Assembly (NCBI RefSeq): GCF_021462505.1
Contig: NZ_JAKEDV010000001.1
Location: forward strand, 310,439 to 374,438
Length of the DNA: 64,000 nt
Source: Thermus brockianus
GTDB taxonomy: Bacteria; Deinococcota; Deinococci; Deinococcales; Thermaceae
Direction of reading: 5' to 3'
Shown here: one piece after another, positions 16,512 through 33,070 of the stretch
How the letters are laid out: every line of letters begins with the position of its first letter
Numbering within the stretch: position 1 is the first letter of the stretch
The notes under the pieces: model-generated
What the model was told of the DNA's origin: nothing
Seen by the model: only the letters and a program-made list of their open reading frames with translations
Database searches by the model: none
Program-made: the position numbers and the translations under genes

Positions 16512-17986
16512 CTCAAGTTTAGCCAAATGCTTTTCACTTCCGTATAGTGTTCTAGGGCATAGCGGCCCATTTCCCTACCCAGCCCACTTTCCTTGAAGCC
16601 ACCCCACGGGCTGGTGGCATCTAGGAGAAGGTAGCCGTTGACCCAAACGGTGCCAGCCTTTAGGCTGTGCGCTACGCGGATCGCTTGCTTTAGATCTTCG
16701 CCCCAGACGCCTGCAGCCAGGCCATAACGGGTTGCGTTGGCCCGCTGAACGGCTTCAGTTAAATTCTCGTAGGGGAGAATGGTGAGAACAGGTCCGAAGA
16801 TTTCTTCCTGCGCGATCGTGTGGTGATCCTCAGCCAGGAAAACCGTGGGTTTGACGTAGAATCCCTTAAGCGAATGGTTGGGTTCCCCACCCAATAGAAG
16901 CTCAGCGCCTTCCTCCTTTCCTTTCCGAATATAGGAGAGTACCCGTTCTCTATGTTCCTCGCTGATTAACGGTCCCATTTGGGTAGCCGGATCTAGCGGG
17001 TGTCCCTGGCGGATGTTTTTAACTGCATCCAGGAATGTGTTCATGAAGGTGTCCAGGTAGCTTTTGGGTACAAAAAGGCGGCTACCAGCAGCGCAGACTT
17101 CGCCCTGGTTAAAGAAGGCGGCAAAAAGTACGCCACGGACTACTTTTTGTGGATCCGCATCTTCCAATACAATGTTGGGCGACTTTCCCCCAAGTTCTAG
17201 GGTAACACGCTTTAGGTGCTCTGCTGACTTTTTGAGGATAGACTTGCCAACCTCAGGCGAACCAGTGAAGGATATTTTCGCAACCCTTGGATGCAGAACA
17301 AGCGCCTCTCCTGCTTCTGGACCGAAACCCGGTACGATGTTTACTACTCCCTTGGGGAAGCCAGCTGCTTCGATGAGTTCAGCAAGGTACAAGGCGGTAA
17401 GGGGGGTAAGTTCAGAAGGCTTTAACACCACGGTGTTCCCTGCAGCAAGGGCGGGGGCTAACTTCCAGCTCGTAATGAGGAGGGGGAAGTTCCAAGGGGT
17501 AATTGCTCCGATCACGCCTAAGGGTTCGCGCCGGGTGTAGGCAAGGTAGTTTCCTGGGAGAGAGACCGGGAGAACTTCCCCTGACCATTTGGTACTCCAT
17601 CCGGCAAAATAGCGAAAGTGTTGTGCAGCCAGGGGAATATCTGCGGTCCGAGCCTCAATATAGGGCTTGCCGACGTTAAGGGCTTCCAGAATGGCGAGGG
17701 CTTCGGCGTGCTCCTCTATAAGCTCCGCGAGCCGGAAAAGCAAGCGGCCCCTTTCGTCGGGGCTTGTCCGTCCCCATGAGCCCTGAAGGGCCCTTTCAGC
17801 AGCGAGAACAGCCTGGTCTACATCGGGAGCTTTGGCCCGCGCTACCCAGGCGAGGACCTCCTTCGTAGCTGGGTTGAGGACAGGGAAGCGCTCCCCGTCC
17901 TCAGCTTCTACGAACCTACCCCCAATGTAAAGCGGTCCAACGCGCTTCAGGAACTCGTCAATTTGACGCGGGACGTTGATGACCAT
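16508..17986 (-). CDS. NAD(P)-dependent aldehyde dehydrogenase of the R2lox operon
   Basis: A 492-residue class 1/2-type aldehyde dehydrogenase: ITPWNFPLL, the catalytic E264 in [11 protein letters not shown], nucleophile C298 in [11 protein letters not shown], and EEIFGPVL near the C-terminus. It oxidises an aldehyde to the acid in the cytoplasm. Fourth in the SCP2-ADH-R2lox-ALDH operon, only 3 bp after R2lox, it would be the final step turning an alcohol or aldehyde made upstream into a carboxylic acid for CoA activation. GC and codon choice are lower than in mfd next door. The substrate is inferred from context only. Confidence 0.9.
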
Positions 17987-17989
17987 GGT

Positions 17990-18892
17990 TTAAGCTTCTC
18001 CTTCCTCCATTTCTAAGGCAATTTGTTCAATCTCTTTTAGGCTCTGGTTGCGAGCCAGCTCCAATCGCCGGTAGCGCTTTTGGAACTGGCCCATGGCATA
18101 GTTGACGAACTCCCCGACTTCTAGTTGAAGGGGAAACCCCTGCGGGTAGGCGCGGAAAATGTCTTGAACGACGCCGAGGGCGTAGGGAAGAAGGTAGTTC
18201 ATTCGGCGCTCCACGATCTCCCACAAGGATGGGTTTTCTGCGAGCAACCGGGAAAGGAGGTAAATGCCGTAGGCGATATGGCGAGACTCGTCGCGCTGGA
18301 CATGGCGAATACCCTCTATCGTTCCGGGAAGCTTCACGCCCCGTTGACCTAAGAGTTCAGCGGCGCGATAATAGGCGTAGTAGCCTGTTTCCGCCAAAAC
18401 GCCCTCAACGATCATGTTGTACGTAACTGCGGCTTCTGCTTGCGCTTCCGGGGAGGGATCGTCCAAAAGCCGCCCCATTGCTTTCGGAAGTTCCTCGTAG
18501 AAGATCTTTTTGTAGTTATTGCTATGGAACCGCTCTAGATTAGTTTCTCGGGCCACCTCCCGAATGAGGAGATCAAAGAATTCTACGTGTTTGGCTTCGT
18601 CCACGAGGAAGGTGGTTAGGTACATCTCTTCTTCCAATCGCCCCTCACGAGCGATCACCTGAACCAAGGGAAGCAGGTCAAGGGTTACAGCTTCTTCCCC
18701 GGACACAAAGAGGGAAGCCAAGTGGAGCGAAGCTTCTTTCTGCCCTTCGTTCAGCGCAGCAAAGCTCTCTTTGTCAACCGAGAAGTCAATGGCTTTAGGG
18801 TCCCAGAAATACTTTTTCGCCTTATGGTAAAGTTGGAGAGGAAAGGAATCCTTTAAGCCTTCCCGTGCTGTCTGGAAACCTTCGCGCAACAT
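17990..18892 (-). CDS. R2-like ligand-binding oxidase (R2lox, Mn/Fe)
   Basis: A 300-residue ferritin-like protein related to ribonucleotide reductase R2 but in the R2lox group (M. tuberculosis Rv0233 and Geobacillus homologues). By motif the metal ligands are E66 (SGEEAVTLD), E99/H102 (DEAKHVEFF), E163 (IVEGVLAETG) and E202/H205 (RDESRHIAYG). V69 and Y158 sit where the family forms a Val-Tyr ether crosslink, three residues after the first Glu ligand and five before the fourth. The Val and Tyr placement separates it from true R2. Known R2lox structures hold a long-chain fatty acid and a Mn/Fe site; their natural substrate is unknown. It lies between the alcohol and aldehyde dehydrogenases, 4 bp and 3 bp apart. 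Confidence 0.9.
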   Translation of the reverse strand: MLREGFQTAREGLKDSFPLQLYHKAKKYFWDPKAIDFSVDKESFAALNEGQKEASLHLASLFVSGEEAVTLDLLPLVQVIAREGRLEEEMYLTTFLVDEAKHVEFFDLLIREVARETNLERFHSNNYKKIFYEELPKAMGRLLDDPSPEAQAEAAVTYNMIVEGVLAETGYYAYYRAAELLGQRGVKLPGTIEGIRHVQRDESRHIAYGIYLLSRLLAENPSLWEIVERRMNYLLPYALGVVQDIFRAYPQGFPLQLEVGEFVNYAMGQFQKRYRRLELARNQSLKEIEQIALEMEEGEA

Positions 18893-18896
18893 CTTT

Positions 18897-19940
18897 TCAC
18901 CCCCTAACTACCAAAAGCACTTTGAGCGCCTCTTTGCGGTCAAACAGCTCGTATCCCCGAGGAGCTTCTTCTAGAGGAAGATAATGGGAAACGATCTTCT
19001 CCGGTTTTAGCCGCCCGCTTGCCAGGAGAGCCAGAACGGTATCAATGTACAAATGGACGTTGGCTAGCCCTATTCGGAAGGTTAGGTCCTTGACTAGCCC
19101 AGAAGCCAAGGGAAAGGGGAAGGAGGGTGCGTTGTCCACGCCGACAGCTGATACCCTTCCACCCGGCCGTACCATCTCTATGGCTAGGCTAAGAGTGGTT
19201 GGCCCGCCCACGGCCTCGAGGACCAGATCAGGTCCTTCATCATTGGTTTCAGAACGAGCGCGGCGGACCGGATTTTCTCGCTCAGCATTTATAGGAATGG
19301 CGCCGAGAGCGGCAGCACGTTCCAAGCGCTCGGGAATACGGTCAATGGCCAGAACTTTGCTCGCGCCTAACGCCTGTGCCACTTCGATGGCCATCAATCC
19401 CACAGGCCCAGTTCCGATGACTGCTACGCTGTCCCCGGGACGGAACTGGCCCTGAATAAGGCCCCCGTACGCCGTGGAAAGTATGTCGCCGGCAAAGATG
19501 GCCCTCTCAGGGCTGAGGTTTGGGGGCAGTTTGCGAAGATTGACGTGGGCAAAAGGTACCCGTAGCAGTTCTGTTTGGGCACCCTGGAGGTTGCCGAACA
19601 TGGGGCCGTAACCGTAGACGCCCCCTCGCTCGCATAGGTTGTACTGTTGCCTCCTACAGTAGGTGCAGGTGCCACATGCGATGTGGAAGGGCCCTACAAC
19701 CCAATCACCCGGCCTGAGGTTCGGGATACCCTCACCTACCGCCTCTACCTGGCCCACGAATTCGTGACCCAGAATGCTTCCTGGGAGTACGGGGATTTTG
19801 CCGTGGTAAAGGTGCAGGTCGGAACCGCAAATCCCAGCTAAATGCACCCGTACCAGAGCATCTAACGGGTGTTGGAGGCTAGGGGGGTCCACCCTTTTGA
19901 CTGCGATTCGTTCCTTGCCTTCAAAAACAACCGCACGCAT
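18897..19940 (-). CDS. Zinc-dependent medium-chain alcohol dehydrogenase
   Basis: A 347-residue MDR enzyme: catalytic zinc Cys in AGICGSDLHLYHG, GHEFVGQV, the structural zinc set CGTCTYCRRQQYNLC, and the NAD-binding loop GTGPVGLMAIEVAQ with an acidic residue (LAIDR) at the end of beta 2, which favours NAD over NADP. It should interconvert an alcohol and an aldehyde or ketone. Within the operon it follows the SCP2 gene by 2 bp and precedes R2lox by 4 bp, matching a chain oxidase -> alcohol -> aldehyde -> acid. Substrate specificity is not readable. Confidence 0.9.
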   Translation of the reverse strand: MRAVVFEGKERIAVKRVDPPSLQHPLDALVRVHLAGICGSDLHLYHGKIPVLPGSILGHEFVGQVEAVGEGIPNLRPGDWVVGPFHIACGTCTYCRRQQYNLCERGGVYGYGPMFGNLQGAQTELLRVPFAHVNLRKLPPNLSPERAIFAGDILSTAYGGLIQGQFRPGDSVAVIGTGPVGLMAIEVAQALGASKVLAIDRIPERLERAAALGAIPINAERENPVRRARSETNDEGPDLVLEAVGGPTTLSLAIEMVRPGGRVSAVGVDNAPSFPFPLASGLVKDLTFRIGLANVHLYIDTVLALLASGRLKPEKIVSHYLPLEEAPRGYELFDRKEALKVLLVVRG

Positions 19941-19942
19941 GG

Positions 19943-20365
19943 TTAGAGCCCTTCTGGATACTGGGTGGGGACTTGTTTTGCCGTATTGGTGAGCTCTAGG
20001 GCTGCCATCATGTACTGGCTGAGCGCGGCAAGGTCCCCCTTTTCGAGCTTTACTTTCCCCCGCATGAGTGCGGATACGGGGTCCAGTTCTCCCTCAATGA
20101 TTTGCTTCCATGTACGGGCATCAGCGGTAATGATGTATGGTGCTTCCTCAAAATCCTGCGCAGTAGCTTGTCGTGCACCTCGGCATTCACCGTGGTAAAG
20201 ATCCAGGTAAATGCCCCGCTTTTCTTCCAGGCCAAAGGCGGGATCCGGCTCTACCGCCAAGATTAGCGCCCCTTCCCATGTCGCTGCGGCCTGGCGATAG
20301 GCGGAATTGCCGTTCAGTGCTTCGCAGTATGCTTTGGCCCATTCGTCGGAAAAAGGTTCGTACAT
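19943..20365 (-). CDS. SCP2 sterol-carrier/lipid-binding domain protein
   Basis: A 140-residue single-domain protein. The middle and C-terminal parts (GALILAVEPDP, IYLDLYHGECRGAR, YIITADARTWKQIIEGELDP, SALMRGKVKLEKGDL) follow the SCP2 fold, a small tunnel that carries acyl chains, sterols or prenyl lipids. It has no signal peptide, so it probably acts in the cytoplasm as substrate carrier for the oxidoreductases encoded after it. It is first in the SCP2-ADH-R2lox-ALDH operon, with GGGAGGTGA spaced well before its ATG. Lower GC than the Thermus norm. Confidence 0.85.
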   Translation of the reverse strand: MYEPFSDEWAKAYCEALNGNSAYRQAAATWEGALILAVEPDPAFGLEEKRGIYLDLYHGECRGARQATAQDFEEAPYIITADARTWKQIIEGELDPVSALMRGKVKLEKGDLAALSQYMMAALELTNTAKQVPTQYPEGL

Positions 20366-20400: not shown

Positions 20401-20429
20401 ACCTTAGACCGGGTCAAGGCTTCTGTCAA
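20401..20429 (-). promoter_or_regulatory. Promoter of the SCP2-ADH-R2lox-ALDH operon with FadR-like operator
   Basis: On the minus strand there is a perfect -35 TTGACA (20429 down to 20424), a 17-bp spacer, then TAAGGT as -10 (20406 down to 20401). A palindrome TNGACCnGGTCNA lies between and over the -10; in plus-strand coordinates the 15-bp element is 20404-20418 and fits the recalled FadR consensus at 13 of 15 positions. The distance to the SCP2 ATG leaves a leader of about 30 nt with a good ribosome site. This is the strongest promoter seen in the window. Confidence 0.7.
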
Positions 20430-20659: not shown

Positions 20660-21478
20660 ATGTTGGTGAGCCTGCGGAAAGCCGTACACGGGGCGGTTAT
20701 TGGTTTGGTTCTGGTTTCTCAGGTTGGGGTGGGCAATCAATCTGAACTTCGGGTTGTTTCCCCACCGGATTTTCCGTCGGACTTGGCTGACCTCGAGGCC
20801 TTGCATGATGCTGGACGTTACCGGGAGGCGTACGAGAAGGCGCTACAGCGTAAGGATGCTTGGGGCTACATTTTGGCTTCCTATAGCGCGACGAATTATG
20901 CCCGCTATCAGGCGCAGGAGGCCGAACGCCAAGACTGGTTTAGGCGAGCTGCGGATGCGGCGCGCGAGGCGATCAAGTTGGCTCCACAAGAGAAGCGGAG
21001 GGCATCCTTTGAGGTGAGCGCTGAAGCCAAGGCGTACTTCGCTTTGGGGCAGGCGTTGGGACGGTATGTTCAGTACGCAGGGCTCTTCACGCAAGCCCTG
21101 TTGGTGAACCAGATACGTTCTGCCTTCAGTAAATCCATAGAACTGGCACCTCACTTTCCCGACCCCTATATCGGCATGGCTTTGTGGCATGCGGAGGGTG
21201 TTTCGCGGAACATATGCTTGATTTTTGGATGTCGGCGGGACCAGGTTCGCGTGTTCCTTGACAAAGCGGAGTCTTTGCGAAGCAACTCCAAGCGGGTCAT
21301 TCTCGGTTATGTAGATGGGGGCTACGCCAACCTGCTAATAGGGGATTTCCAGGAATCCGATCGCGGGTTAAAAACGGCGCTGGCAACTCCCGCCAACACT
21401 GCCGAGGATCAATACGAGCACGAGCGGGCCAGGAAATTGTTGCAGGAGCTAGACCGCAAGAGGGGGGCAGGAAAATGA
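20660..21478 (+). CDS. Exported TPR-like helical repeat protein
   Basis: A 272-residue protein with an N-terminal hydrophobic segment after basic residues (LRKAVHGAVIGLVLVSQVGVG), read as a signal peptide or membrane anchor. The rest is helical with TPR-like units (LEALHDAGRYREAYEKALQR, AKAYFALGQALG, SAFSKSIELAPHFPDPYIGM). No catalytic motif is seen; it probably scaffolds or assists the envelope components encoded after it. The ATG at 20660 is chosen for its ribosome site; an upstream in-frame start would lie over the promoter. It overlaps the acyl-CoA ligase gene by ATGA. Low-GC codon use. Exact function unknown. Confidence 0.75.
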   Translation: MLVSLRKAVHGAVIGLVLVSQVGVGNQSELRVVSPPDFPSDLADLEALHDAGRYREAYEKALQRKDAWGYILASYSATNYARYQAQEAERQDWFRRAADAAREAIKLAPQEKRRASFEVSAEAKAYFALGQALGRYVQYAGLFTQALLVNQIRSAFSKSIELAPHFPDPYIGMALWHAEGVSRNICLIFGCRRDQVRVFLDKAESLRSNSKRVILGYVDGGYANLLIGDFQESDRGLKTALATPANTAEDQYEHERARKLLQELDRKRGAGK

Positions 21479-23181
21479 CCCGTGCGCAAGAAAAGCCCTG
21501 GCTGAAGTTTTACGACCCGGGAGTGCCGTGGCAGCTTGAGTACCCTGAGGTCCCTGTACATGCTCTCTTGGAGGAGTCAGCTCGTAAGTGGCATTCAAAG
21601 GAAGCCCTTTTCTTTTACGGCACGAAGGTGACGTATGGCGAGCTTCTTGCTTTGACGCAGAGGGTTGCGGCAAATTTGCAGCACTTGGGTCTTCGGAAGG
21701 GGGATCGGGTAGCATTGATGCTTCCCAATACTCCCCAGTACGTGATGGCCTACTACGGGGTGTTGATGGCGGGAGGGGTTGTCGTCAACATGAGCCCCCT
21801 GTATACGCCCCGGGAGATGCGGGCGATTCTTGAGGATACAGAAGCCCGCTTTCTCATCATGATAGACTTCGCCTTCCCCCGCTACCTGGAAATAGAGGCG
21901 GAAACCCCTGTAGAGGTGGTGTTCACGGCGGGAATCCAGGATTATCTTCCTCCTCCGCTTAATGTCTTGTACTTGGCAAAGGCCAAACAAGAAGGGATCT
22001 GGCAGGAGTTGCCGGAACATCCTAAGCGGAGGGATTTCAGCGCCCTCTTACAGGAAGGAAAACCCGCTCCGGTGGAGGTGGCTCCTGATGATCTGGCACT
22101 TTTGCAATATACGGGGGGTACTACGGGATCGCCCAAAGGGGCCATGCTCACCCACAGAAACTTGGTGGCGAACGTTTACCAGGTGTGGTCGTGGATGGAG
22201 GCGGGGCGTGTTAGGCAGGACAAGTTCCGCCTCGAGGAGGGCAACGAGGTGGGGCTATGCGCGGTTCCCTTTTTCCATGTGTACGGGATGACAGTAGCCC
22301 TAAACCTCGGCATCAAGGGCGGGGGGAAGCTTATTCTCGTACCCCGGCCCGAACCGAAGGAGCTCGTGGACCACGTGGAGGACCATCGGGTGACGCTTTT
22401 CCCGGGAGTACCCACGATGTACGTGGGCTTTCTTCAGGTGCCCAATTTGGCGAAACGGGATGTTTCCTCCCTTAAGTTCTGCATCTCTGGGGCTGCTCCC
22501 CTTCCTATAGAGGTGGCCAGGCAGTTTGAGGAGGTTACAGGGGCCAAGCTAGTGGAGGGGTATGGTTTGACGGAGGCAAGCCCTGTTACGCATGCCAATC
22601 CCCTTTTTGGGAAACGGAAGGTGGGCTCCATTGGCTTGCCTCTCCCTGGGGTGGAGGCCAAGGTGGTGGACAGTGAGGGAAGGGAGTTGCCCCCTGGGGA
22701 AGTGGGCGAACTGGTGGTTCGCGGCCCAAACGTCATGAAAGGCTATTGGCGGCGCCCCGAAGAAACGGCCCAGGTTCTGCGGGATGGGTGGCTTTATACG
22801 GGGGATATGGCCCGGATGGACGAAGAGGGTTATTTTTACATTGTAGACCGCAAAAAGGATCTAATCATTGCCGGAGGGTACAACATTTATCCCAGGGAAG
22901 TAGAGGAAGTTCTCTATATGCACCCGGGTGTCTTAGAGGCCGCGGTTGTGGGGGTGCCTGATCCTTACCGGGGGGAGACGGTCAAAGCCTTCGTGGTCTT
23001 GAAGCCAGAAGCGCGTGGGCAGGTTACGGAGGAGGATTTGGAAGCATTCTGCCGCAAACATTTGGCTGCCTACAAGGTGCCCAGAATATGGGAGTTCCGA
23101 GAGGAGTTGCCGAAGAGCTTGGTTGGAAAGGTTCTTCGGCGGGTGTTGCGCGATGAGGCTGGGAGTGGAGGTGGATCGTGA
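21475..23181 (+). CDS. fadD: Long-chain fatty acid-CoA ligase
   Basis: A 568-residue adenylate-forming enzyme. The phosphate loop is YTGGTTGSPKGAML, followed by FFHVYGMTV, EGYGLTEASPVTH, GWLYTGDMARMDEEGYF, the hinge region VDRKKDLIIAGGYNIYPREVE and the C-terminal lysine in PKSLVGKVLRR. It activates long-chain fatty acids to acyl-CoA at the inner membrane. It overlaps the TPR gene (ATGA) and its TGA overlaps the GTG of the lipoprotein gene, so the operon is tightly coupled. It would accept acids delivered by uptake or produced by the divergent SCP2-R2lox operon. Confidence 0.93.
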   Translation: MTRAQEKPWLKFYDPGVPWQLEYPEVPVHALLEESARKWHSKEALFFYGTKVTYGELLALTQRVAANLQHLGLRKGDRVALMLPNTPQYVMAYYGVLMAGGVVVNMSPLYTPREMRAILEDTEARFLIMIDFAFPRYLEIEAETPVEVVFTAGIQDYLPPPLNVLYLAKAKQEGIWQELPEHPKRRDFSALLQEGKPAPVEVAPDDLALLQYTGGTTGSPKGAMLTHRNLVANVYQVWSWMEAGRVRQDKFRLEEGNEVGLCAVPFFHVYGMTVALNLGIKGGGKLILVPRPEPKELVDHVEDHRVTLFPGVPTMYVGFLQVPNLAKRDVSSLKFCISGAAPLPIEVARQFEEVTGAKLVEGYGLTEASPVTHANPLFGKRKVGSIGLPLPGVEAKVVDSEGRELPPGEVGELVVRGPNVMKGYWRRPEETAQVLRDGWLYTGDMARMDEEGYFYIVDRKKDLIIAGGYNIYPREVEEVLYMHPGVLEAAVVGVPDPYRGETVKAFVVLKPEARGQVTEEDLEAFCRKHLAAYKVPRIWEFREELPKSLVGKVLRRVLRDEAGSGGGS

Positions 23182-24437
23182 AGGGGTGGCGTGCCTACGT
23201 TTGGGCGCTATTGGGTGTGTTGTTGGGAGCGTGTGGCCTTCCGAGTCCCGAGCAGGCTAGGAGGAATCTAGCCCCCGAAACTCCACTCACGCCAGAGTAC
23301 CGGGATATCCCTCTGGCGAGGATTCAGCTGGACGTGTGGGATCTCTACGATCTTCTTTTTGGTGAAAGCCCTAACGTCCGCCTGTTTACGGTAAGCGGGG
23401 GTCAGGCAAGAGGCCGTATCCAGCAAGGGGATATGGCCTTGGAGATAGGTGTTCCCGATTTTGGCTTACAGTTTTTCGTTTCTGCGCTAGAGCTTAATCG
23501 GGAGGTTAGGAAGGAGATTACGCTTCCCCGGATTAGTGGCGTGAATGCTGCCTTGCAAAGCCTGCTGCAACAGGCGCAACTTCCCGAGGCGTATCTTTTC
23601 CAAACGCTTACGCTTACCCTGCCTAGAGGGTACGTACGGGCCAGGGATATCGCTGTGTGTACGCAGGGAGCAAGCAGCAAGTGCACGGGAAATTTGATGG
23701 CAGTTAACGGTGGGAGCACGGAATTCCGCTTTAACACAGGGCAACCGGTGGAGGTGGTGGCTGAGGCGAGCGCTTTGCTCAATGCCTTGGGCGTGGCTGT
23801 GTTCTCGGGGGAGGTGCGCGTAGACCTTAGGTTGACGCCATTGGCGGATCTGGAGGACCTCCTGAGGTATGTTGCGCAGGAAGGCTGCAGCGTGTTAGGC
23901 TGCAACATTAGGCAAGTTGTTAGCCAGGCACGGGTGTTAGCCCCCTTCGGGGCTAAGTCTTCAGGCCCTTTTGTTGTTACCACAAAGGCACTTGCCTCAC
24001 CACTAGGAGCGCTTCCCGCAGCTACTGTGGAGGAGCTCCAACGGTATACAGAAACGCTTGGGCTTACCCTGGAGTTGGAATCTGAGCTTCCCACAGAGGT
24101 CTTGGGCGTCACCCTGTGGGCCGGATCGGGGAACGAGCCTCGGTTTGACACGCCTTTGCCCGGGGATTTCGTCTATACGGTATCCGATCCCATACCTGCT
24201 CCTCAGGTAGACGCGGATGGGCGTTCACAGGGTGCAGTTCGTAAGAGGATTGCGGTTGAGCTGCCTCAGGAGGAGGCTAGGCGGTTCTTGGGGCTTCTGG
24301 GTCAAGAGAACGTTCACGTGGCGGCACGCTTGCACCTGCAGGGGCCTGCGGGTAGCCAGGGGGTCTTCCGGTTTAAGGCACAAGATCAGCTACGCATTTT
24401 TGCTAAGGGTACAGCGAGGTTGCGGATCGGGAGGTGA
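23178..24437 (+). CDS. Outer-envelope lipoprotein of unknown function in lipid operon
   Basis: A 419-residue lipoprotein. The N-terminus GWRAYVWALLGVLLGACG has a lipobox with the modified Cys at residue 19. The mature part is beta-rich with no recognised catalytic motif, long polar strands, and Cys pairs (about VCTQGASSKC and GCSVLGC) that could form disulfides outside the cytoplasm. Start is the GTG overlapping the fadD stop. Its position between fadD and a barrel-like gene suggests the two act together on lipid uptake or export across the outer envelope. I do not recognise a named family. Confidence 0.7.
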   Translation: MKGWRAYVWALLGVLLGACGLPSPEQARRNLAPETPLTPEYRDIPLARIQLDVWDLYDLLFGESPNVRLFTVSGGQARGRIQQGDMALEIGVPDFGLQFFVSALELNREVRKEITLPRISGVNAALQSLLQQAQLPEAYLFQTLTLTLPRGYVRARDIAVCTQGASSKCTGNLMAVNGGSTEFRFNTGQPVEVVAEASALLNALGVAVFSGEVRVDLRLTPLADLEDLLRYVAQEGCSVLGCNIRQVVSQARVLAPFGAKSSGPFVVTTKALASPLGALPAATVEELQRYTETLGLTLELESELPTEVLGVTLWAGSGNEPRFDTPLPGDFVYTVSDPIPAPQVDADGRSQGAVRKRIAVELPQEEARRFLGLLGQENVHVAARLHLQGPAGSQGVFRFKAQDQLRIFAKGTARLRIGR

Positions 24438-24440
24438 GGG

Positions 24441-25658
24441 ATGCGCCGTGTTGGCTTGGTTGCGAGCGTTTGCTTGATTTTAGGGTCGGGTGCCTTTGGT
24501 CAGCCTGCCTTGTACCCGGAAGGTCCCCAGGCTCTTCCCTTGGAGGGAGGCTTGGAGATCGGGCTTCCGAGCCTGGGGTTGGATGTGGACAACAACACCC
24601 TGACCCTTGCCGACTTAATAAACGTGGCTGCCCTGTTGCGGGACCCCCAACCCACGGACATCCTCCTCTTGGCAGCTAAGGTACCCAGGGGTTCGGATTC
24701 GGTGGCTACGTTGCGTGGCCTGGGCCAGGTGTTTGCTGTGGCCTGGCCTTTTGGCGTAGACCCGCTAACGGGTTCCGCGGCCTTTAGCCTTGGACTTTCC
24801 TACGGGATTGAAGCTCGAGGTCGGCTTAATATTGGAAAAGATTTAGTTTCCCTGGCACAGGATGGAGCGCAACCGGGTGATGTGCTCGTTTTGGATGGCA
24901 CCCAAGGCACAGGTGTGGTATTTGATCGGCTGACGCTTCAGGCGGCCTTACCGCTCTTGGATGGACTGGTGGTGGCTGGTGCGGAGCTATCGGTGCTTTA
25001 CGCCCGCTTCCTGGGCCAGGCTGGTCTAGGCGGTAGTCTTTACTACGATGCCAACGGTTACGATGGGGTCGCAAGCCTCGAGGCGGTGGAGGGTGGCGGG
25101 GGGTTTGGGTATCAGCTCGGTTTTGGCGTTCGAACCCGCTTGCCTACTGTAGGGGCAGGAATTCGCTTCCGCGTTTTGGGTCAACTCAGCTATACTGGGG
25201 AACGTAGAACGGTAAGCGTGCAGGCCACCGATGCAGCGGCCTTGGACATTGTGGAATGCCTTCGCAATGGTACAGGCAATAGCCAGGTGAGTTGCGCTTC
25301 GCAAACGACTCAGACGGCTGGATCTTTATCTTTGCCCACAGAAATAGATGCCTATGCGTATTATCCTATTTTCCTTGGTCAGGGGGAGCCTTTGTTCCTT
25401 TTGGCTCGGGCACGTGGGGTATTTGGGGGTTTCCTGGACGAGGGGTGGCGGCTAGGTGTGGGCGCCTCGTACCGGTTGTTCACCCGGGTGCCTTTGGGGG
25501 TGGAGCTAGGAATTGGGGGTCCTTCGGGCTTCTCGCTAGGTTTTAGGCTGGGGGTGGAGTTGCCAGGAGCAGAGCTCCGTTTCGGTTTGGCGCAACGGGG
25601 GGGTTTCCTGCTGGGCGCGAAGGGGGCAGAGTTCCGGCTTGCGGCGGTGTTGAAGTAG
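24441..25658 (+). CDS. Outer membrane beta-barrel candidate (FadL-like role)
   Basis: A 405-residue protein with a signal peptide (GLVASVCLILGSGAFGQ) and then many alternating polar/hydrophobic strands separated by Gly/Asp turns. Examples are the strands around SAAFSLGLSYGIEARGRLNI, GGGFGYQLGFGVRTRL and FSLGFRLGVELPGAELRFGL. This is the pattern of an outer membrane barrel. No clear match to FadL itself is seen, but placement after fadD and the lipoprotein suggests a hydrophobic-substrate channel. A strong ribosome site GGAGGTGAGGG precedes the ATG. Function is inference. Confidence 0.65.
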   Translation: MRRVGLVASVCLILGSGAFGQPALYPEGPQALPLEGGLEIGLPSLGLDVDNNTLTLADLINVAALLRDPQPTDILLLAAKVPRGSDSVATLRGLGQVFAVAWPFGVDPLTGSAAFSLGLSYGIEARGRLNIGKDLVSLAQDGAQPGDVLVLDGTQGTGVVFDRLTLQAALPLLDGLVVAGAELSVLYARFLGQAGLGGSLYYDANGYDGVASLEAVEGGGGFGYQLGFGVRTRLPTVGAGIRFRVLGQLSYTGERRTVSVQATDAAALDIVECLRNGTGNSQVSCASQTTQTAGSLSLPTEIDAYAYYPIFLGQGEPLFLLARARGVFGGFLDEGWRLGVGASYRLFTRVPLGVELGIGGPSGFSLGFRLGVELPGAELRFGLAQRGGFLLGAKGAEFRLAAVLK

Positions 25659-25670
25659 GGGGGGATTGCG

Positions 25671-27371
25671 ATGGTGGACTCGGTGCGACGGTACCGCTTA
25701 TCGGAGGAGGAGCGCAGGCGGCTGAAGCAGGAACTAGAGGCTAAGGCGAAGACGATCACGCCTCGTGCCCGCATGCGAGCTGTGGTAAGCACCATGGCCC
25801 GTTATGGATTGTCCCAGCTTCTTGCGGGAGGCCTACCGCGGTCTGAGGAAGGATGGCGGGCACTAGGGCGTCGGGTAAAGCAAGCGTTTCAGGAGCTTGG
25901 GCCCACGTACATCAAATTGGGTCAGGTGTTGGTTACCCGGCAGGAGCTCTTTCCCGACCCATTTACGGACGAGCTTAAAACTCTCCTAGACGAGGTTCCT
26001 CCCATGGCCTTTCCCTACATCGCTTTGGTTTTGGAGGAGGAACTTCCCGAGGGATTGGAAACGTTTAACTGGATTGATCCCCAACCCCTTGCGTCTGCTT
26101 CTGTGGCTCAAGTGTATCGGGCGGAGTTGCGGGATGGGCGTGCTTGTGCGGTTAAGGTGGTGCGCCCGTTGGTGGACCTGTTGTTCCAAACCGACATTGG
26201 CGTGATAAAGCGGATCGCGTCCCGGGTTCAACGACTTTTGCCTCCTCCCATTGCTGCTTCGTTGGATTTGCCCGGTATATTGGAGGACTATTATTCTAGC
26301 GCCATGTCAGAGCTAGACATGCGTCTTGAGGCGCGCAATACCGAAGAGGGGCGCCGGATGGCGGAAGAATTCGCCACCTTGGCTGTTCCAGAGGTGTACT
26401 TGGCAACCCAACGAGTGCTCGTAATGGAGTTTGTAGACGGTTGGAACCTAAAAGATTTTCCGGTAGATTTCTTTACTTTTGAAGAGCGTCTTGAGATCAT
26501 GTTGGACCTAGCCCACATTTACATTAAAACCTTCCTTGAGGGCTTATATCACGCGGATCCCCATGGGGGGAACCTGATGATACACCGGCATAACCGCAAG
26601 TGCTACATCATTGATTGGGGAATGATGGGTCGCATGGACGCTACCCATATAGAGGCGATTTTTCGCACGTTGCTTCATGTGCGGTCGGGCCAAGCAAAGG
26701 ACGCTGCCGAAACGATCATGGAGGTTTACGAACCCACAGCCTTTACGGATCGGGGGAGGCTGCGGGATCAGCTTCGGGCTCTGGGCATCCATTACGTCAA
26801 CACGGAGCAGGGTAGCCTGCGAAATTGGGGCGATTTTCTTATACGGTCTATAAAAATCGCCTTCCAAAATCATTGCCGCATCCCCTCGGGTCTTGCCTTG
26901 TGGGCAAAAGGATGGTCCGCGGCAGAAGGTACAGCGCGTTGGCTTTGCCCGGAGATTAGCTTCCATCATGTAGTGGAGTCTGCGGACATACGGATTATAG
27001 AGAGCTGGCTTAAGCGCCGGTTCAATTATCGCACCAATGCGAGCTTTTTGGCAGAAGGGTTGGAGTTTTTAGCCACGCTTCCCCGAAGGGTTAAGGAGAT
27101 TTTGGAAAACTTAGCCTGGAATGAGTTTAGATTGGTTCTTGAAGGGAGGCTGGCCCACGATCAAGAGCGTCTGATGTCCCGGTTGGTTAACCGGCTCTCG
27201 TTGGGTATGTTAGCGAGCGGGCTCTTTCTCGGGGGATCCATTCTCCTGGCGTTTGGTGGGGATTCCTCCCGCGACCCCTTCCTTGTGCGGTTTGCGGGGC
27301 AGTTGGGGCTTTGGGGTGGCCTGATCCTTTCAGGGTACCTGGCGTATAAGGTTGTGCGGCAGCGCATTTAG
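25671..27371 (+). CDS. UbiB/ABC1/COQ8-family atypical kinase
   Basis: A 566-residue ABC1 kinase. The KxGQ-type motif is YIKLGQVLVTRQ, the Ala-rich nucleotide loop ASASVAQVYRAEL, the VAIK-type lysine AVKVVRP, the catalytic/metal region YHADPHGGNLM, and IDWGMMGRMD in place of the usual IDFG. Two hydrophobic segments near the C-terminus (LGMLASGLFLGGSILLAFGG and LGLWGGLILSGYLAYKVV) anchor it in the membrane. Family members support quinone synthesis and other lipid handling, often through ATPase activity. Here it follows fadD, lipoprotein and barrel genes rather than menaquinone genes, so a role in moving or mobilising lipid is likely. Low-GC codon use. Confidence 0.88.
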   Translation: MVDSVRRYRLSEEERRRLKQELEAKAKTITPRARMRAVVSTMARYGLSQLLAGGLPRSEEGWRALGRRVKQAFQELGPTYIKLGQVLVTRQELFPDPFTDELKTLLDEVPPMAFPYIALVLEEELPEGLETFNWIDPQPLASASVAQVYRAELRDGRACAVKVVRPLVDLLFQTDIGVIKRIASRVQRLLPPPIAASLDLPGILEDYYSSAMSELDMRLEARNTEEGRRMAEEFATLAVPEVYLATQRVLVMEFVDGWNLKDFPVDFFTFEERLEIMLDLAHIYIKTFLEGLYHADPHGGNLMIHRHNRKCYIIDWGMMGRMDATHIEAIFRTLLHVRSGQAKDAAETIMEVYEPTAFTDRGRLRDQLRALGIHYVNTEQGSLRNWGDFLIRSIKIAFQNHCRIPSGLALWAKGWSAAEGTARWLCPEISFHHVVESADIRIIESWLKRRFNYRTNASFLAEGLEFLATLPRRVKEILENLAWNEFRLVLEGRLAHDQERLMSRLVNRLSLGMLASGLFLGGSILLAFGGDSSRDPFLVRFAGQLGLWGGLILSGYLAYKVVRQRI

Positions 27372-27381
27372 GGGGTGTTGA

Positions 27382-27732
27382 ATGGGAAAGAGCGATTTGA
27401 GCATGGAGGAGCGTATACGGGCCTTTTACAGGCAAAGCGGTGGGCCGTTGAACCCCAAGATCCCGGAACTCATAGAGCGGCATCTTCTTTATGGCAAGGA
27501 TCACGGTCCCCCTGGACGCCGTGAGACGCTAGCCGATGCTTTCATGCGCTGGTTGATGGAGGATCCGAGCATGCGCCTGGTGGCGGAATGGTACATGCGC
27601 CGGCAGATGCGGCAAAGCTCGTTGGAGAGCCGGCTAGGACAAGTAGAGAAGGAGTTGGGAGCCTTGCGTGAGGAGGTGCGGGAGCTAAGGCGCGCGTTTC
27701 TGGAGCTTTGTAAGGAGCGACCGGGTAAGTGA
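27382..27732 (+). CDS. Small protein with C-terminal coiled coil, unknown function
   Basis: A 116-residue soluble protein. The first 75 residues are helical and charged (MEERIRAFYRQSGGPLNPK, ADAFMRWLMEDPSMRLVAEW). The last 40 form a clear heptad coiled coil (SLESRLGQVEKELGALREEV). No enzyme motif. It starts 10 bp after the UbiB-like kinase gene, so the two are probably co-transcribed. In E. coli the coiled-coil accessory UbiK works with the SCP2-domain protein UbiJ and UbiB; the resemblance of this trio is architectural only. A phasin-like lipid-surface protein is another possibility. Confidence 0.7.
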   Translation: MGKSDLSMEERIRAFYRQSGGPLNPKIPELIERHLLYGKDHGPPGRRETLADAFMRWLMEDPSMRLVAEWYMRRQMRQSSLESRLGQVEKELGALREEVRELRRAFLELCKERPGK

Positions 27733-27757: not shown

Positions 27758-27801
27758 TTGACGGCAGATGCCTTTGGCATTAAACTTTGACCGAGTATAA
27801 G
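27758..27801 (+). promoter_or_regulatory. Promoter of the beta-oxidation operon with FadR-like operator
   Basis: Two overlapping promoter readings exist: TTGACG (27758-27763) with a 17-bp spacer to TAAACT (27781-27786), or TTGGCA (27774-27779) with a 16-bp spacer to TATAAG (27796-27801). The element TTTGACCGAGTATAA at 27786-27800 fits the recalled FadR consensus at 14 of 15 and covers the second -10. A small inverted repeat ATGCCtttGGCAT lies between (27768-27780). The ribosome site GGGGAGG precedes the ATG at 27817. Confidence 0.65.
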
Positions 27802-27816: not shown

Positions 27817-30111
27817 ATGCGTCGGATCAAAAAGGTTGGGGTCATAGGGGCTGGAACCATGGGCAGTGGGATTGCTGCGTTGGTTATTAGCGCAGGCATC
27901 CCAGTGGTGCTCCTGGATATACCCGGTCAGGATGACCGTAATGGTCCTGCTAAGCAGGGTCTGGAGCGTGCTCTGAAGTCCAAGTTTCCTGCGTTCATGG
28001 ATAAGGATTTGGCAAGCTACATTGATGTGGGCAATATTGAGGATGACCTAGACAAACTGAAGGATTGTGACTGGGTAGTGGAAGCAATTGTGGAAAAGGT
28101 GGAGCCAAAACGGGCCCTTTATGCCCGGCTGGAATCCGTGCTGCATCCGGATGCTATTGTTAGTTCGAACACCAGCAGCATCCCGATGCGGGTTTTGTTG
28201 GAGGGTCGCTCGGAAGGATTTAAGCGCCGCTTCTTGGGGACCCACTTCTTTAACCCGCCCCGGTACCTCCACCTATTGGAGATCATTCCAACACCCGAGA
28301 CGGACTCGGATGTTGTGGCAGCGATGCGGCGTTTTGGCGAACGTATCCTGGGTAAGGGTGTGGTTCTAGCCAAGGATAGCCCGGGATTTATCGCCAACCG
28401 GTTGGGCGTGTATGGAATGGTGCAGGCCATGCGGCTTATGGAAAAGCACGGCCTGACCATTGACGAGGTGGATGCCCTCACGGGCTCCCTCTTGGGGCGT
28501 CCTAATTCGGCTACCTTCCGTACGGCAGACCTTACGGGGTTGGACGTACTGAAGCTGGTGGCGGAAGAGCTTGCAGAGGCTACAGGAGAGGACTTTAAGC
28601 TCCCAGAGTGGTTTTATCAGCTTGTTGAGCGGGGGCTTTTAGGCGATAAGACAGGGGCAGGTTTCTACAAGAAAGTAGATGGGGAACGTTATACCCTGGA
28701 TTACGCCACCCTCGAGTACCGCCCACGCCAGAAGCTAGAGCTTCCGGAGCTGAGTGCCTTGAAGGATAAACCCTTGGAGGAACGGCTTCGGGGAGCTCAG
28801 CAACTACCCGGAAAGTACGGTGTCTTTTTGAAAGAGCTCTTTGCCTTGACGGCCCACTACACCATTTCAAAGGCCCCCGACATCGCCTATGACCTTGTAG
28901 GGGTGGACCAGGCCTTGGAGTGGGGCTTTGGGTGGGAAGAAGGGCCCTTTAAGAACATGGATGCCCTGGGGTTGGATTACGTGCGCCAGGTTTTCCGGGA
29001 GTTTGGGCTTGAGGAACCCGACTGGATTCGGGGGCATGAGCGCTTCTATCTCAACGGGACCTTCCTGGGCTTTGATGGCGTATACCACCCCCTTCCAAGC
29101 CGTCCCGACATCATTCAACTGAAGCCTCTCAAGCGGGAGGGGAGGGTCCTGCATTCTACTTCCGAAGCTTCCATCTTGGACCTGGGCGACGGGGTGCTCT
29201 TGCTGGAGTTCCACAGCAAGATGAATGCCATCGGGGAAGGGGTCCTCCGAACCCTGGAGAAGGCGCTGAGAACGGTGGAAGCGGGGGATTACCTAGGATT
29301 GGTCATTGGTAATGAGGACCCCCGGGCCTTTTCAGCAGGAGCGAACCTCGCCCTCATTCTGTCCTTAGCTCAGGAGGGAGATTGGGCTGAGCTCAAGCGC
29401 GCCACATACTTTTTCCAACAGGCCACTAAGGCGATTCGGTACGCTCCGTTCCCGGTTGTGGTGGCCCCCTTCGGTCTGACCTTGGGTGGGGGAGCTGAGT
29501 TCATGCTCCATGCAGACCATGTGCAGGCGCATGCCGAACTGTATACCGGCCTTGTAGAGGCTGGGGTCGGCTTGTTGCCCGCAGGTGGGGGCACCAAGGA
29601 GATGCTCCTGCGCTTCACGAGGGAACTTTCTGGCTTCGCCCAGGCGGACTTGTTTGAGGGTGTGCGTCGGGCATTTGAGCTTATCGCCACGGCTAAGGTG
29701 GCCACAAGTGCTCTCGAGGCCAAGAAGCTCGGCTTCCTCCGGGATCGCGATGGCATAACGATGAACCGTGACTTCCTCATCGCAGACGCGAAGCGGAAGG
29801 TGCTGGAGCTTGCTGTGGATTACCGTCCTCCCCTTCCTTCCAAAATCACAGTTCTGGGCGATGAGGCCTTGGGCAACTTAAAGTACGCCGTTTGGCAATT
29901 CCGGGAGGCAGGGGAGATCACCGACCACGAGGTCAAAATTGGCCAGGAAATTGCGTGGGTTCTTTCGGGTGGAGGTGGACCGCGACGTGAGGTGACGGAA
30001 GACTTCTTGCTGGAGCTGGAGCGCGAGGCTTTTGTCCGGCTGTTGGGCACGCGGAAAACGCAGGAGCGGATTGCCTACACTTTGAAGACGGGCAAGCCGC
30101 TGCGGAACTAA
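27817..30111 (+). CDS. fadN: 3-hydroxyacyl-CoA dehydrogenase / enoyl-CoA hydratase (FadN/FadB type)
   Basis: A 764-residue bifunctional beta-oxidation enzyme in the order dehydrogenase first, hydratase last, as in B. subtilis FadN. NAD loop [15 protein letters not shown] at the start, SSNTSSIPM, the HFFNPP motif of hydroxyacyl-CoA dehydrogenases, and a crotonase domain from about residue 455 with [11 protein letters not shown] and [16 protein letters not shown]. It hydrates 2-enoyl-CoA and oxidises the 3-hydroxyacyl-CoA. The ATG at 27817 is chosen because the in-frame TTG at 27787 lies inside the promoter/operator. It heads an operon with thiolase and acyl-CoA dehydrogenase. Confidence 0.93.
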
Positions 30112-30133
30112 GGTGGCGCTAGGGGGATGGAAA

Positions 30134-31327
30134 ATGCGTGAGGCAGTCATTGTCAGTGCGGTGAGGAGCCCGGTTGGGCGGGGAAAGCGGGACGGCGCTT
30201 TTGCGAATCTGCACCCAGTGGATCTTTCTGCACAGGTGATGCGCGGGGCTGTGGAGCGCATTGGCTTGGATCCACGGGAGCTGGAGGATGTCCTTTGGGG
30301 TTGTGCGGTTCCAGAAGCGGGACAGGGGCTAAACATCGCACGGTTGGCTCTTTTGAGGGCTGGCTTCCCAATAGAGGTATCGGGTGCCACTGTTAACCGT
30401 TTTTGCTCTTCGGGTCTGCAGACCATTGCCATGGCGGCTCAAGCTGTAATGACAGGGATGGCGGATGGGGTGCTTGCGGGTGGCGTGGAGGTGATGAGTC
30501 AGGTGCCCATGTCTGGGTTTGTAACCCGCTTGCACCCTGAGCTTACCCCCGATACCTGGAGTCCAGAGGCGTACTCCACGTACATCGGCATGGGTTACAC
30601 CGCCGAGCGGGTAGCGGAGCGCTTTGGCATATCCCGGGAAGACCAGGACAAGTGGGCGTATAGAAGCCACCAGCTGGCAGCCAAAGCCCAGCGGGAGGGG
30701 AAGTTCACCGAGATCGTTCCCATTCGCGTACCCAAAGTGACTTTCCAGGGCACCAAGAAGGTGGTAGAGGAAACGGTCGTGGAGAAAGACGAAACTGTTC
30801 GTCCGGACACCACTCTCGAGGCCCTGGCCAAGCTCCGCCCCGCCTTCAAGAAGGGGGGCACGGTGACCGCAGGGAACGCCAGTCCCTACTCCGATGGGGC
30901 GGCGGCGGTCGTTGTCATGAGCCGGGAGAAGGCGGAGGCTCTAGGCCTAAAACCCTTGGCCCGCTTCGTCAGCTTCGCCGTGGCCGGTGTGGAGCCCGAC
31001 ATCATGGGCATTGGACCGGTGAAGGCTATCCCCAAGGCCCTTCAGCGGGCGGGCCTTACCCTGGATCAGATTGACCTCATAGAGTTCAACGAAGCTTTTG
31101 CCGCCCAGGTTTTGGCGGTGATGCGGAGCTTGGGGATGCCGGAGGAGAAGACCAACGTGAACGGGGGGGCCATCGCTCTCGGCCACCCCTTGGGGGCCAC
31201 GGGGGCTAAGCTCACGGCGCAGCTTATTTCCGAGCTTTCCCGGCGCGGTGGGGGGTATGGTCTTGTGACCATGTGCATCGGCGGCGGCATGGGGGCTGCT
31301 GGTGTTTTTGAGGTGTACCCGGCGTAG
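30134..31327 (+). CDS. fadA: Acetyl-CoA acyltransferase (3-ketoacyl-CoA thiolase)
   Basis: A 397-residue thiolase: [19 protein letters not shown], nucleophile C91 in [13 protein letters not shown], the His block [16 protein letters not shown] and the C-terminal active Cys in [12 protein letters not shown]. It cleaves 3-ketoacyl-CoA to acetyl-CoA and a shortened acyl-CoA. It begins 22 bp after the FadN-type gene. The first half has lower GC codons than the second half, which looks like a standard Thermus gene, so the gene may be a recombinant mosaic. Confidence 0.93.
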
Positions 31328-31339
31328 AAGGAGGGGAGT

Positions 31340-33070
31340 ATGGTAGAAGAGAAGAAGCTTTGGCAGAAAGGCGGCGGCTGGCTTTTGGAGGCTCCGGAGC
31401 GCATTTACACCCCAGAGGACTTTGACTCCACGATTCGCGAAATTGCCAAGACAACCCGTACGTTTGCGGAGCGGGAAGTGCTCCCTCTTTTGGAGCGCTT
31501 GGAGCATGGTGAGCTGGAGCTGAACCGCGATTTGCTCCGCAAGGCGGGGGAGTTGGGCCTTTTGGGTGCTGAAACGCCTGAAGCGTACGGGGGCCTGGAC
31601 CTTCCTAAGACAGTTTCCACGGTTATTGCTGAAAATCTCGCGGGATTAGGAGGTTTTGCCGTTACACACGGAGCCCACACCACTTTGGCCATGCTTCCCA
31701 TCATCTACTTTGGCAACGAAGCACAGAAGCAAAAGTATTTGCCGAAGATGGTGACGGGGGAATGGGTGGGCGCTTATTGCCTTACCGAACCTGGGGCCGG
31801 CTCCGATGCGCTTTCAGGGAAGACCCGGGCCACCCTTTCGGAGGATGGGAAGTACTACATTCTCAACGGTGTGAAGCAATGGATCTCCAATGCCGGCTTC
31901 GCTGACGTCTTCATCGTGTTCGCCAAGGTGGATGGGGAGAAGTTCACCGCTTTCATCGTGGAGCGGGGCTTCGGGGTGAAGGTGGGCCCTGAAGAGAAGA
32001 AGATGGGGATTAAGTCCTCCTCCACCAGGCAAGTGATCTTGGAAGACGTCAAGGTGCCCGTGGAGAACGTGCTGGGAGAGATTGGCAAGGGGCACAAGAT
32101 CGCTTTCAACATCTTGAACGTCGGGCGTTACAAGCTGGGTGCGGGCTCCATTGGTGGGGCTAAACTCGCTTTAGAGATTTCCACCAAGTACGCCAAGGAG
32201 CGGGTTCAGTTTGGTAAGCCCATCGCCCAGTTCGGCCTGATCCAGGAGAAATTGGCCGAGATGGCGACGCGGGCCTTTGCCGGGGAAAGTGCCGTTTACC
32301 GCACCATGGGCCTCATTGATGAGGCCATCGGTGACAAGAAGGGCCCGGAAGCGGTAATGGCAGGTATTGAGGAGTACGCAATAGAGGCTAGCATCATCAA
32401 GGTGCTTGGCTCGGAGGTCTTGGCCTACGCTGTGGATGAAGGGGTCCAGATTCACGGGGGTTACGGCTACTCCCAGGAGTACCCCATAGAACGGGCTTAC
32501 CGGGATGCCCGTATCAACCGTATTTTTGAAGGGACCAACGAGATCAACCGGCTTCTCATCCCAGGGATGCTCCTACGGCGGGCCATGAAGGGGGAGTTGC
32601 CCCTGGTTCAGGCGGCTACTAAGCTTCAGGATGAGCTCATGTCCCCCAGCTTTGAGGAACCTGAAGACCAAGAAGCGGCCTTGATCCAAAACTTGAAGAA
32701 GCTCGCCCTCATGCTTTCGGGCCTCGGAGCGATGCGTTTCCAGCAGAGACTAGAGGAGGAGGAGGAGCTCCTTGCCGCTGCTGCCGATCTCCTCATTGAC
32801 ATCTATGCTGCAGAAAGTGCCTTGTTGCGGGCCCGTAGGCTTGGTGGAGTGGCAGAAAAGATGGCCAGGCTCTACCTCTATCAGGCGGCAGACCGGGCGC
32901 AGATGCGAGCCAGCCAGGTGGTGCCTCGGTTAGCCCAGGGGGATGAGCAAAGCTTCATCCTCTCAGCTGTGCGCCGGCTTACAAAGCGCCCAGCGGTGGA
33001 TTTCATTTCTTTGAGGCGGGAGATTGCGGGGGCGGTCCTCGAGGCCGAGGGCTACCCCATCCCCCGCTAG
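31340..33070 (+). CDS. fadE: Acyl-CoA dehydrogenase, long VLCAD-like form
   Basis: A 576-residue acyl-CoA dehydrogenase, about 190 residues longer than the short family members because of a C-terminal helical extension after residue 400. FAD and substrate signatures are [14 protein letters not shown] and [15 protein letters not shown], then [20 protein letters not shown] and the catalytic Glu in [11 protein letters not shown]. The extended architecture is that of VLCAD/ACAD9 and B. subtilis FadE, which prefer long chains and associate with membranes. It performs the first oxidation of beta-oxidation and passes electrons to ETF. Last gene of the operon, followed by a strong terminator. Confidence 0.92.

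Follow-up and report, generated by a model that had tools for sequence, protein, structure and literature searches.

Six neighboring genes of Thermus brockianus combine an acyl-CoA ligase with envelope proteins, an atypical kinase and a small coiled-coil (CC) protein, and the question is what such a set could serve. The window analyzed here is the whole 64,000-nucleotide stretch of contig NZ_JAKEDV010000001.1 (assembly GCF_021462505.1, forward-strand positions 310,439 to 374,438), and all unprefixed coordinates below are positions in this window. A preliminary description of the six genes (20660–27732) took them for a candidate lipid-uptake operon and suggested that they and their neighbors may be an undescribed system for an unusual lipid. 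We read them as part of a laterally spread island for the oxidation of n-alkanes (long-chain hydrocarbons), a reading to which we assign a probability of approximately 0.6.

Organization of the six-gene operon

The six tightly packed open reading frames are all present on the forward strand, as originally proposed. The first gene (20660..21478) encodes an exported helical-repeat protein with an N-terminal signal-like hydrophobic stretch. The open reading frame was correctly recognized, but its tetratricopeptide repeat (TPR) label finds no TPR match in a Pfam scan, and we call the product TPR-like. The protein family is seen in 95 of the 111 genomes of the phylum, with best matches of 30–40% identity. 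The second gene (21475..23181) encodes a FadD-type long-chain acyl-CoA ligase, and the matches to PF00501 and PF13193 bear out its earlier assignment. The third (23178..24437) starts with GTG and encodes a 419-residue lipoprotein without an assigned family, whose clear lipobox (LLGAC, Cys19) agrees with the preliminary call. It is followed by a gene for an exported glycine-rich and beta-rich protein of 405 residues (24441..25658), a candidate outer-membrane barrel by its sequence pattern. The fifth gene (25671..27371) encodes an atypical kinase/ATPase of the UbiB/ABC1 family with a C-terminal membrane helix, and the sixth (27382..27732) encodes the small CC protein. The TPR-like and FadD genes overlap by 4 bases, as do the FadD and lipoprotein genes, and the remaining gaps are 3 bases (lipoprotein to barrel-like), 12 bases (barrel-like to UbiB) and 10 bases (UbiB to CC). 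Thermus sp. 2.9 (G022, NZ_JTJB01000043), a carrier within the same genus, keeps the six-gene order, as do G007 and a second T. brockianus strain.

A laterally transferred island contains the six genes

The six genes are not a lipid-uptake operon standing by itself; they belong to one low-GC island together with a divergent operon and a beta-oxidation set. The divergent operon, on the reverse strand, encodes an SCP2-domain lipid carrier (19943..20365, PF02036), a zinc alcohol dehydrogenase (ADH; 18897..19940, PF08240/PF00107), the R2-like ligand-binding oxidase I, R2lox (17990..18892), which is the proposed alkane monooxygenase, and, as its last gene, an aldehyde dehydrogenase (ALDH; 16508..17986). 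Downstream of the six genes, on the forward strand, are fadB, encoding a FadB/FadN 3-hydroxyacyl-CoA dehydrogenase/enoyl-CoA hydratase of the island type (27817..30111), fadA for a thiolase (30131..31327) and fadE for an acyl-CoA dehydrogenase (31340..33070). R2lox is a structural puzzle with its Mn/Fe cofactor, self-made cross-link and bound fatty acid. The Thermus protein scores 347.1 bits against the family model NF006202, above the cut-off of 315. In an alignment with GkR2loxI (4hr0), all six metal ligands are present (E66, E99, H102, E163, E202 and H205), and the Val69/Tyr158 pair of the ether cross-link is also aligned.

The GC content at third codon positions (GC3) is 0.57–0.71 in the segment from the ALDH gene to fadE (approximately 16.5–33.1 kb), compared with 0.85 in mfd and 0.88 in cysS, the genes between which the island is located. 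The lipoprotein gene was found in 3 of 25 genomes of the genus. In 12 other Thermus genomes, fadB already lies within 1.5 kb adjoining mfd; therefore, the putative alkane genes occupy a spot that is empty in those relatives. The carriers hold one fadB, which is 94–97% identical between carriers and approximately 77% identical to that of other Thermus, and which seems to have taken the place of the native gene. FadA and FadE are 96–99% and 97% identical among carriers, respectively. In the FadB tree, the island proteins form one clade outside the main Thermus clade (support 100/100). In the Mfd tree, Thermus sp. 2.9 groups with G023 and G013, whereas T. brockianus (G000) and G007 group with G005, and constraining the carriers to one clade was rejected (p-AU 3e-84). 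Because the island FadB proteins form a clade and the carriers do not, the island has moved laterally between Thermus lineages, presumably by recombination in the shared flanks.

UbiB and CC genes occur with R2lox outside Thermus

Outside Thermus, a scan of GTDB contigs with the UbiB-type protein identified two relatives, one in Melghirimyces and one in Alicyclobacillus, and no close homologue was found in a plasmid search. The Melghirimyces cluster has the order SCP2 - ADH - R2lox - ALDH - UbiB - DUF6230 protein - secreted protein - CC. Its products are 54% (SCP2, ADH and R2lox), 62% (ALDH), 55% (UbiB) and 45% (CC) identical to those of Thermus. Thus, a single cluster in another phylum unites genes from both sides of the divergent Thermus promoter.

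Among 399 Bacilli genomes, UbiB homologues occur in 30, and CC occurs in the identical 30 (p 8e-46). R2lox is present in all 30 of these genomes and in 47 of the 369 others (p 2e-24), which answers the co-occurrence check with R2lox in the affirmative. These genomes are species of one class and phylogenetically non-independent, so that the p-values overstate certainty; the physical clustering of the genes stands apart from them. CC lies just downstream of UbiB in 32 of 33 UbiB loci, a few having one or two intervening genes. R2lox is within approximately 10 kb of UbiB in 24 of the 33 loci, and four more of them (in G175, G190, G204 and G226) have it at approximately 18–23 kb. Genes for ALDH, SCP2, ADH, FadD, FadE, FadA and DUF6230 proteins recur in these loci, and one G200 cluster (L166, 7561-11140) holds two R2lox genes along with SCP2, ADH, ALDH, UbiB, CC, FadD and DUF6230. 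The preliminary suggestion that the operon, the R2lox operon and the beta-oxidation genes are one system is thereby supported. UbiB and CC are an often-found and faithful two-gene partner of R2lox. This link is new in that no mention of it was found in the literature searched, which does not establish priority.

The gene order in two of the Bacilli loci, L178 and L180, is FadD-FadE-FadE-Ech-x-FadA-UbiB-CC-ADH-x-ALDH-R2lox-DUF6230, which matches GK2782 to GK2770 of Geobacillus kaustophilus HTA426 in order and content. The DUF6230 gene of both loci encodes the sequenced peptides of P21. This membrane protein of G. thermoleovorans B23 is induced by alkanes and not by palmitate or triglycerides (PMC2676291).

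Three further observations concern the relatives in Melghirimyces and Alicyclobacillus. An HPr-like domain (PF00381, E 6.5e-15), odd for an exported protein, forms the C-terminal end of the second secreted protein encoded in the R2lox cluster of Melghirimyces (L098, 13116-14375). A GAF/LuxR-type regulator, possibly an alkane regulator, is encoded near the same cluster (L098, 4518-5771). A similar-looking regulator-like gene adjoins the Alicyclobacillus UbiB gene (L099, 11735-13333) and may have the same role.

Proposed route of n-alkane oxidation

G. kaustophilus HTA426 degrades C10–C24 alkanes, its R2lox reportedly breaks down alkanes in lysates, and its homologous gene cluster has been described as an alkane-degradation cluster (PMC10867098). 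Based on the match to this type of cluster, the P21 peptides and the full set of R2lox ligands, we read the island as an n-alkane oxidation route. The idea of an undescribed system for an unusual lipid is not supported, and ordinary n-alkanes are the likely substrate by analogy with the described cluster. In the proposed route, R2lox would hydroxylate an n-alkane to an alcohol, which ADH would oxidize to an aldehyde and ALDH to a fatty acid, with SCP2 as a putative cytoplasmic carrier of the hydrophobic intermediates. FadD would convert the fatty acid to acyl-CoA, which would be fed to beta-oxidation by FadB, FadA and FadE. The TPR-like, lipoprotein and barrel-like proteins would most likely carry the hydrocarbon over the outer membrane and periplasm of Thermus, replacing the P21-type (DUF6230) envelope proteins of the Gram-positive clusters. 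By analogy with COQ8 and Cqd1, the membrane-anchored UbiB-type protein probably spends ATP so that the soluble enzymes can reach hydrophobic substrate located in the membrane.

Several points weigh against this assignment. The alkane activity of R2lox comes from one study of crude lysates, in which an E202A/H205A double mutant kept most of the activity (PMC10867098), and we capped our confidence because of it. A dedicated electron-transfer partner for R2lox was not recognized in the island. Usable structure models were obtained neither for the lipoprotein nor for the barrel-like protein, and the lipoprotein has no recognizable relationship with DUF6230 or with the second Bacilli secreted protein. 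Other Thermus carry a lone R2lox gene (loci L100–L109, 55–75% identical) without SCP2, ADH and ALDH nearby, so that R2lox alone does not predict the pathway. In the R2lox gene of Thermus sp. 2.9 (L114, G022:C42, 9038-9936), the reading frame apparently shifts after residue 219, which may be a sequencing error or decay. Finally, the alkane assignment for these Thermus comes from genes rather than from growth. Separately, the use of R2lox as a strict marker for the six genes was rejected, as most Thermus R2lox genes are solitary.

UbiB-type protein and coiled-coil protein

The preliminary assignment of the fifth gene product to the UbiB-like kinases was confirmed by PF03109 (164.2 bits, cut-off 22.9) and by the KLGQ, VKVV, HADPHGGN and DWG motifs. 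Its scores are far under the cut-offs of the ubiquinone-pathway models TIGR01982 (243.6 versus 487.55) and NF003404 (176.5 versus 667), and identity as a ubiquinone-biosynthesis UbiB (equivalog) was rejected. The nearest solved structure by sequence is the ABC1-family protein 5yjz, with a match confined to residues 44-324. CC represents an undescribed small coiled-coil family that is absent from Pfam and NCBIfam; 18 members were scanned without a match to either. An alignment of the 18 sequences reveals a conserved N-terminal block, RIxAFYxQSGGP...HL...DHG, ahead of the coiled coil.

Yeast UbiB proteins are believed to use their ATPase activity for extracting or depositing a membrane lipid (PMC8346625), and a dedicated lipid-extraction role for R2lox would be the most attractive reading. 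We can tentatively go one step further. UbiB and CC might form an ATP-driven module that presents hydrocarbon to R2lox, in which UbiB would pull an alkane or a fatty alcohol out of the bilayer and CC would dock it to R2lox or SCP2. In the diderm Thermus, this module would be joined to a new outer-membrane uptake pair of lipoprotein and barrel, unrelated to FadL, AlkL or P21. We regard this combined proposal as speculative and more probably wrong than right.

Envelope proteins

The lipoprotein has an N-terminal signal with the lipobox cysteine (MKGWRAYVWALLGVLLGAC), in which LGAC is invariant in the three Thermus species that have the protein. The barrel-like protein also begins with a signal peptide; it is 16% Gly and contains just 4 Lys. 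Amphipathic beta stretches exceed those of shuffled versions in both the barrel-like protein (16 versus 9.1, p 0.008) and the lipoprotein (19 versus 11.1, p 0.005). By sequence, the former is compatible with a beta-rich exported protein and the latter with an outer-membrane lipoprotein. AlphaFold models from two-sequence alignments had mean predicted local distance difference test (pLDDT) values of 36 for the lipoprotein and 33 for the barrel-like protein, the latter without a confident residue, and are uninformative on the fold.

No convincing relative of either protein was found in Pfam, NCBIfam or the PDB. Searches of GTDB contigs, plasmids and genomes of the phylum gave no full-length homologue outside the three Thermus species (weak and doubtful matches only). 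The 405-residue protein had no Pfam match to FadL/OmpP1 (PF03349) at E values up to 1, and no DUF6230 match was found among the scanned island proteins in Pfam. Profile comparisons of the lipoprotein with DUF6230, the second Bacilli secreted protein and the barrel-like protein were negative, at an effective number of sequences (Neff) of 1.2 for the lipoprotein profile, which gives little power. In the same kind of comparison, DUF6230 and the second Bacilli secreted protein are related to each other (probability 96%). The envelope pair diverges faster than the rest, with 76–78% identity between T. brockianus and Thermus sp. 2.9, compared with 92% for UbiB and 97% for FadE. We read the lipoprotein and the barrel-like protein as Thermus-specific envelope parts, probably for uptake. 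From the position of their genes and the differing envelope of Thermus, we infer that they do the job of the Gram-positive P21-type proteins without being related to them.

The C-terminal part of the barrel-like protein (approximately 86 residues) recurs in a 116-residue exported protein encoded on another contig of the same genome. At this locus (L013, G000:C10, 1557-3545), the gene for the small protein is just upstream of one for a lipoprotein of Peptidase_S15/alpha-beta-hydrolase fold, and transposase-like genes are present on the contig.

Alternative explanations

An ordinary Thermus lipid operon, inherited vertically and merely located beside R2lox, would explain the compact order that is conserved among carriers. 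However, most Thermus lack the six genes, the segment has a low GC3, and it sits between genes that are adjacent in many other Thermus. In addition, the carriers are not a clade by Mfd, and UbiB-CC is tied to R2lox in another phylum; we therefore consider vertical inheritance extremely improbable. It is a more serious, though still unlikely, alternative that the island handles other exogenous lipids, such as fatty alcohols, wax esters, triglycerides or membrane fatty acids. R2lox would then modify fatty acids or alcohols, and the import of fatty acids, which is the task of FadL in E. coli, would fall to the envelope proteins. R2lox proteins co-purify with C16–C18 (hydroxy) fatty acids (PMC10867098), FadD, SCP2 and FadB-A-E act on any long-chain substrate, the FadR-like sites described below suggest control by acyl-CoA (PMC5597230), and the second copy of the barrel C-terminal part adjoins a lipoprotein of alpha/beta-hydrolase fold. 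In contrast, alkane pathways are laid out in this way, with ADH and ALDH next to an oxidase that activates O2, and the inducer range of P21 in the homologous Geobacillus cluster also points to alkanes.

Two other alternatives concern parts of the island. Instead of handling hydrocarbon, the UbiB-CC pair could act in the supply of quinones or redox equivalents, or it could help the Mn/Fe cofactor of R2lox to mature. The UbiB family is known for the biosynthesis and distribution of quinones (PMC8346625), and R2lox requires electrons, with no reductase recognized in the island. We find this doubtful in view of the low score against the ubiquinone-pathway UbiB model (244 versus 488 bits) and the absence of the pair from 47 of 77 R2lox genomes. 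Similarly, the lipoprotein, barrel-like and TPR-like proteins might be a device for envelope maintenance or solvent tolerance, acting in protection or hydrocarbon export rather than uptake. The envelope proteins are known by sequence-level features only, and P21 itself has been left open as a protein of uptake, tolerance or degradation (PMC2676291). The 4-base overlap of the lipoprotein and FadD genes is easier to read as substrate supply, and we give the tolerance explanation only a minor share of our confidence.

Comparison with known systems

The proposed alkane-oxidation island of Thermus shares R2lox, ADH, ALDH, FadD, acyl-CoA dehydrogenase and thiolase with GK2769-GK2782 of G. kaustophilus HTA426 (PMC10867098), in which the gene order of the matching L178 and L180 loci indicates that UbiB and CC correspond to GK2776 and GK2775. 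It differs in having two divergent operons and a beta-oxidation set of the FadN-A-E type, and its R2lox is approximately 40% identical. Instead of a P21/DUF6230 gene, it encodes the lipoprotein, barrel-like and TPR-like proteins. With the P21/P16 alkane-induced membrane proteins (DUF6230 type) of G. thermoleovorans B23 (PMC2676291), the shared feature is the encoding of envelope proteins in an R2lox cluster, whereas the Thermus lipoprotein has no detectable homology to them. As in the FadL/FadD system of E. coli, an outer-membrane candidate would work with an acyl-CoA ligase, but there is no match to FadL (PF03349) and the substrate would probably be activated only after oxidation. The UbiB-type protein shares the ABC1 kinase-like domain, conserved motifs and membrane helix with the COQ8/Cqd/UbiB atypical kinases. 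Unlike them, it belongs to a separate subfamily, under the UbiB cut-offs and paired with CC and R2lox. The R2lox alkane cluster is known, and the Thermus envelope parts and the R2lox-linked UbiB/CC pair are new.

In the searched Bacilli, UbiB-CC is found only with R2lox, inside clusters for alcohols, aldehydes and fatty acyl groups, which lends contextual support to the claim that R2lox oxidizes alkanes. A UbiB-family protein thereby gains a metabolic context outside quinones. The island most likely enables this hot-spring Thermus to consume oil-like hydrocarbons via R2lox, and it provides a genetic basis for testing hydrocarbon use in thermophilic Thermus.

Operator candidates and further R2lox loci

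Two FadR-like operator candidates were found in the island. TTTGACCGAGTATAA (27786..27800), 16 bases before fadB, has one mismatch to the T. thermophilus FadR consensus TTRNACYNRGTNYAA (PMC5597230). The weaker candidate, TTAGACCGGGTCAAG (20404..20418), has two mismatches and is located in the divergent promoter region between the two operons. The number of such sites in the window shows no excess over chance. Both sites hold their position in G007 and Thermus sp. 2.9; this conservation, which alone speaks for them, is only suggestive of FadR control of the island.

In G020 (locus L101, 8324-10512), the lone R2lox gene is near ftsZ and lies beside genes for a lipase-like alpha/beta hydrolase, a methyltransferase and a CrtI-like oxidoreductase. 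In another family of the phylum, loci L116 (G036) and L117 (G040) contain SCP2-ADH-R2lox, with ALDH added in G040, and lack a close UbiB homologue.

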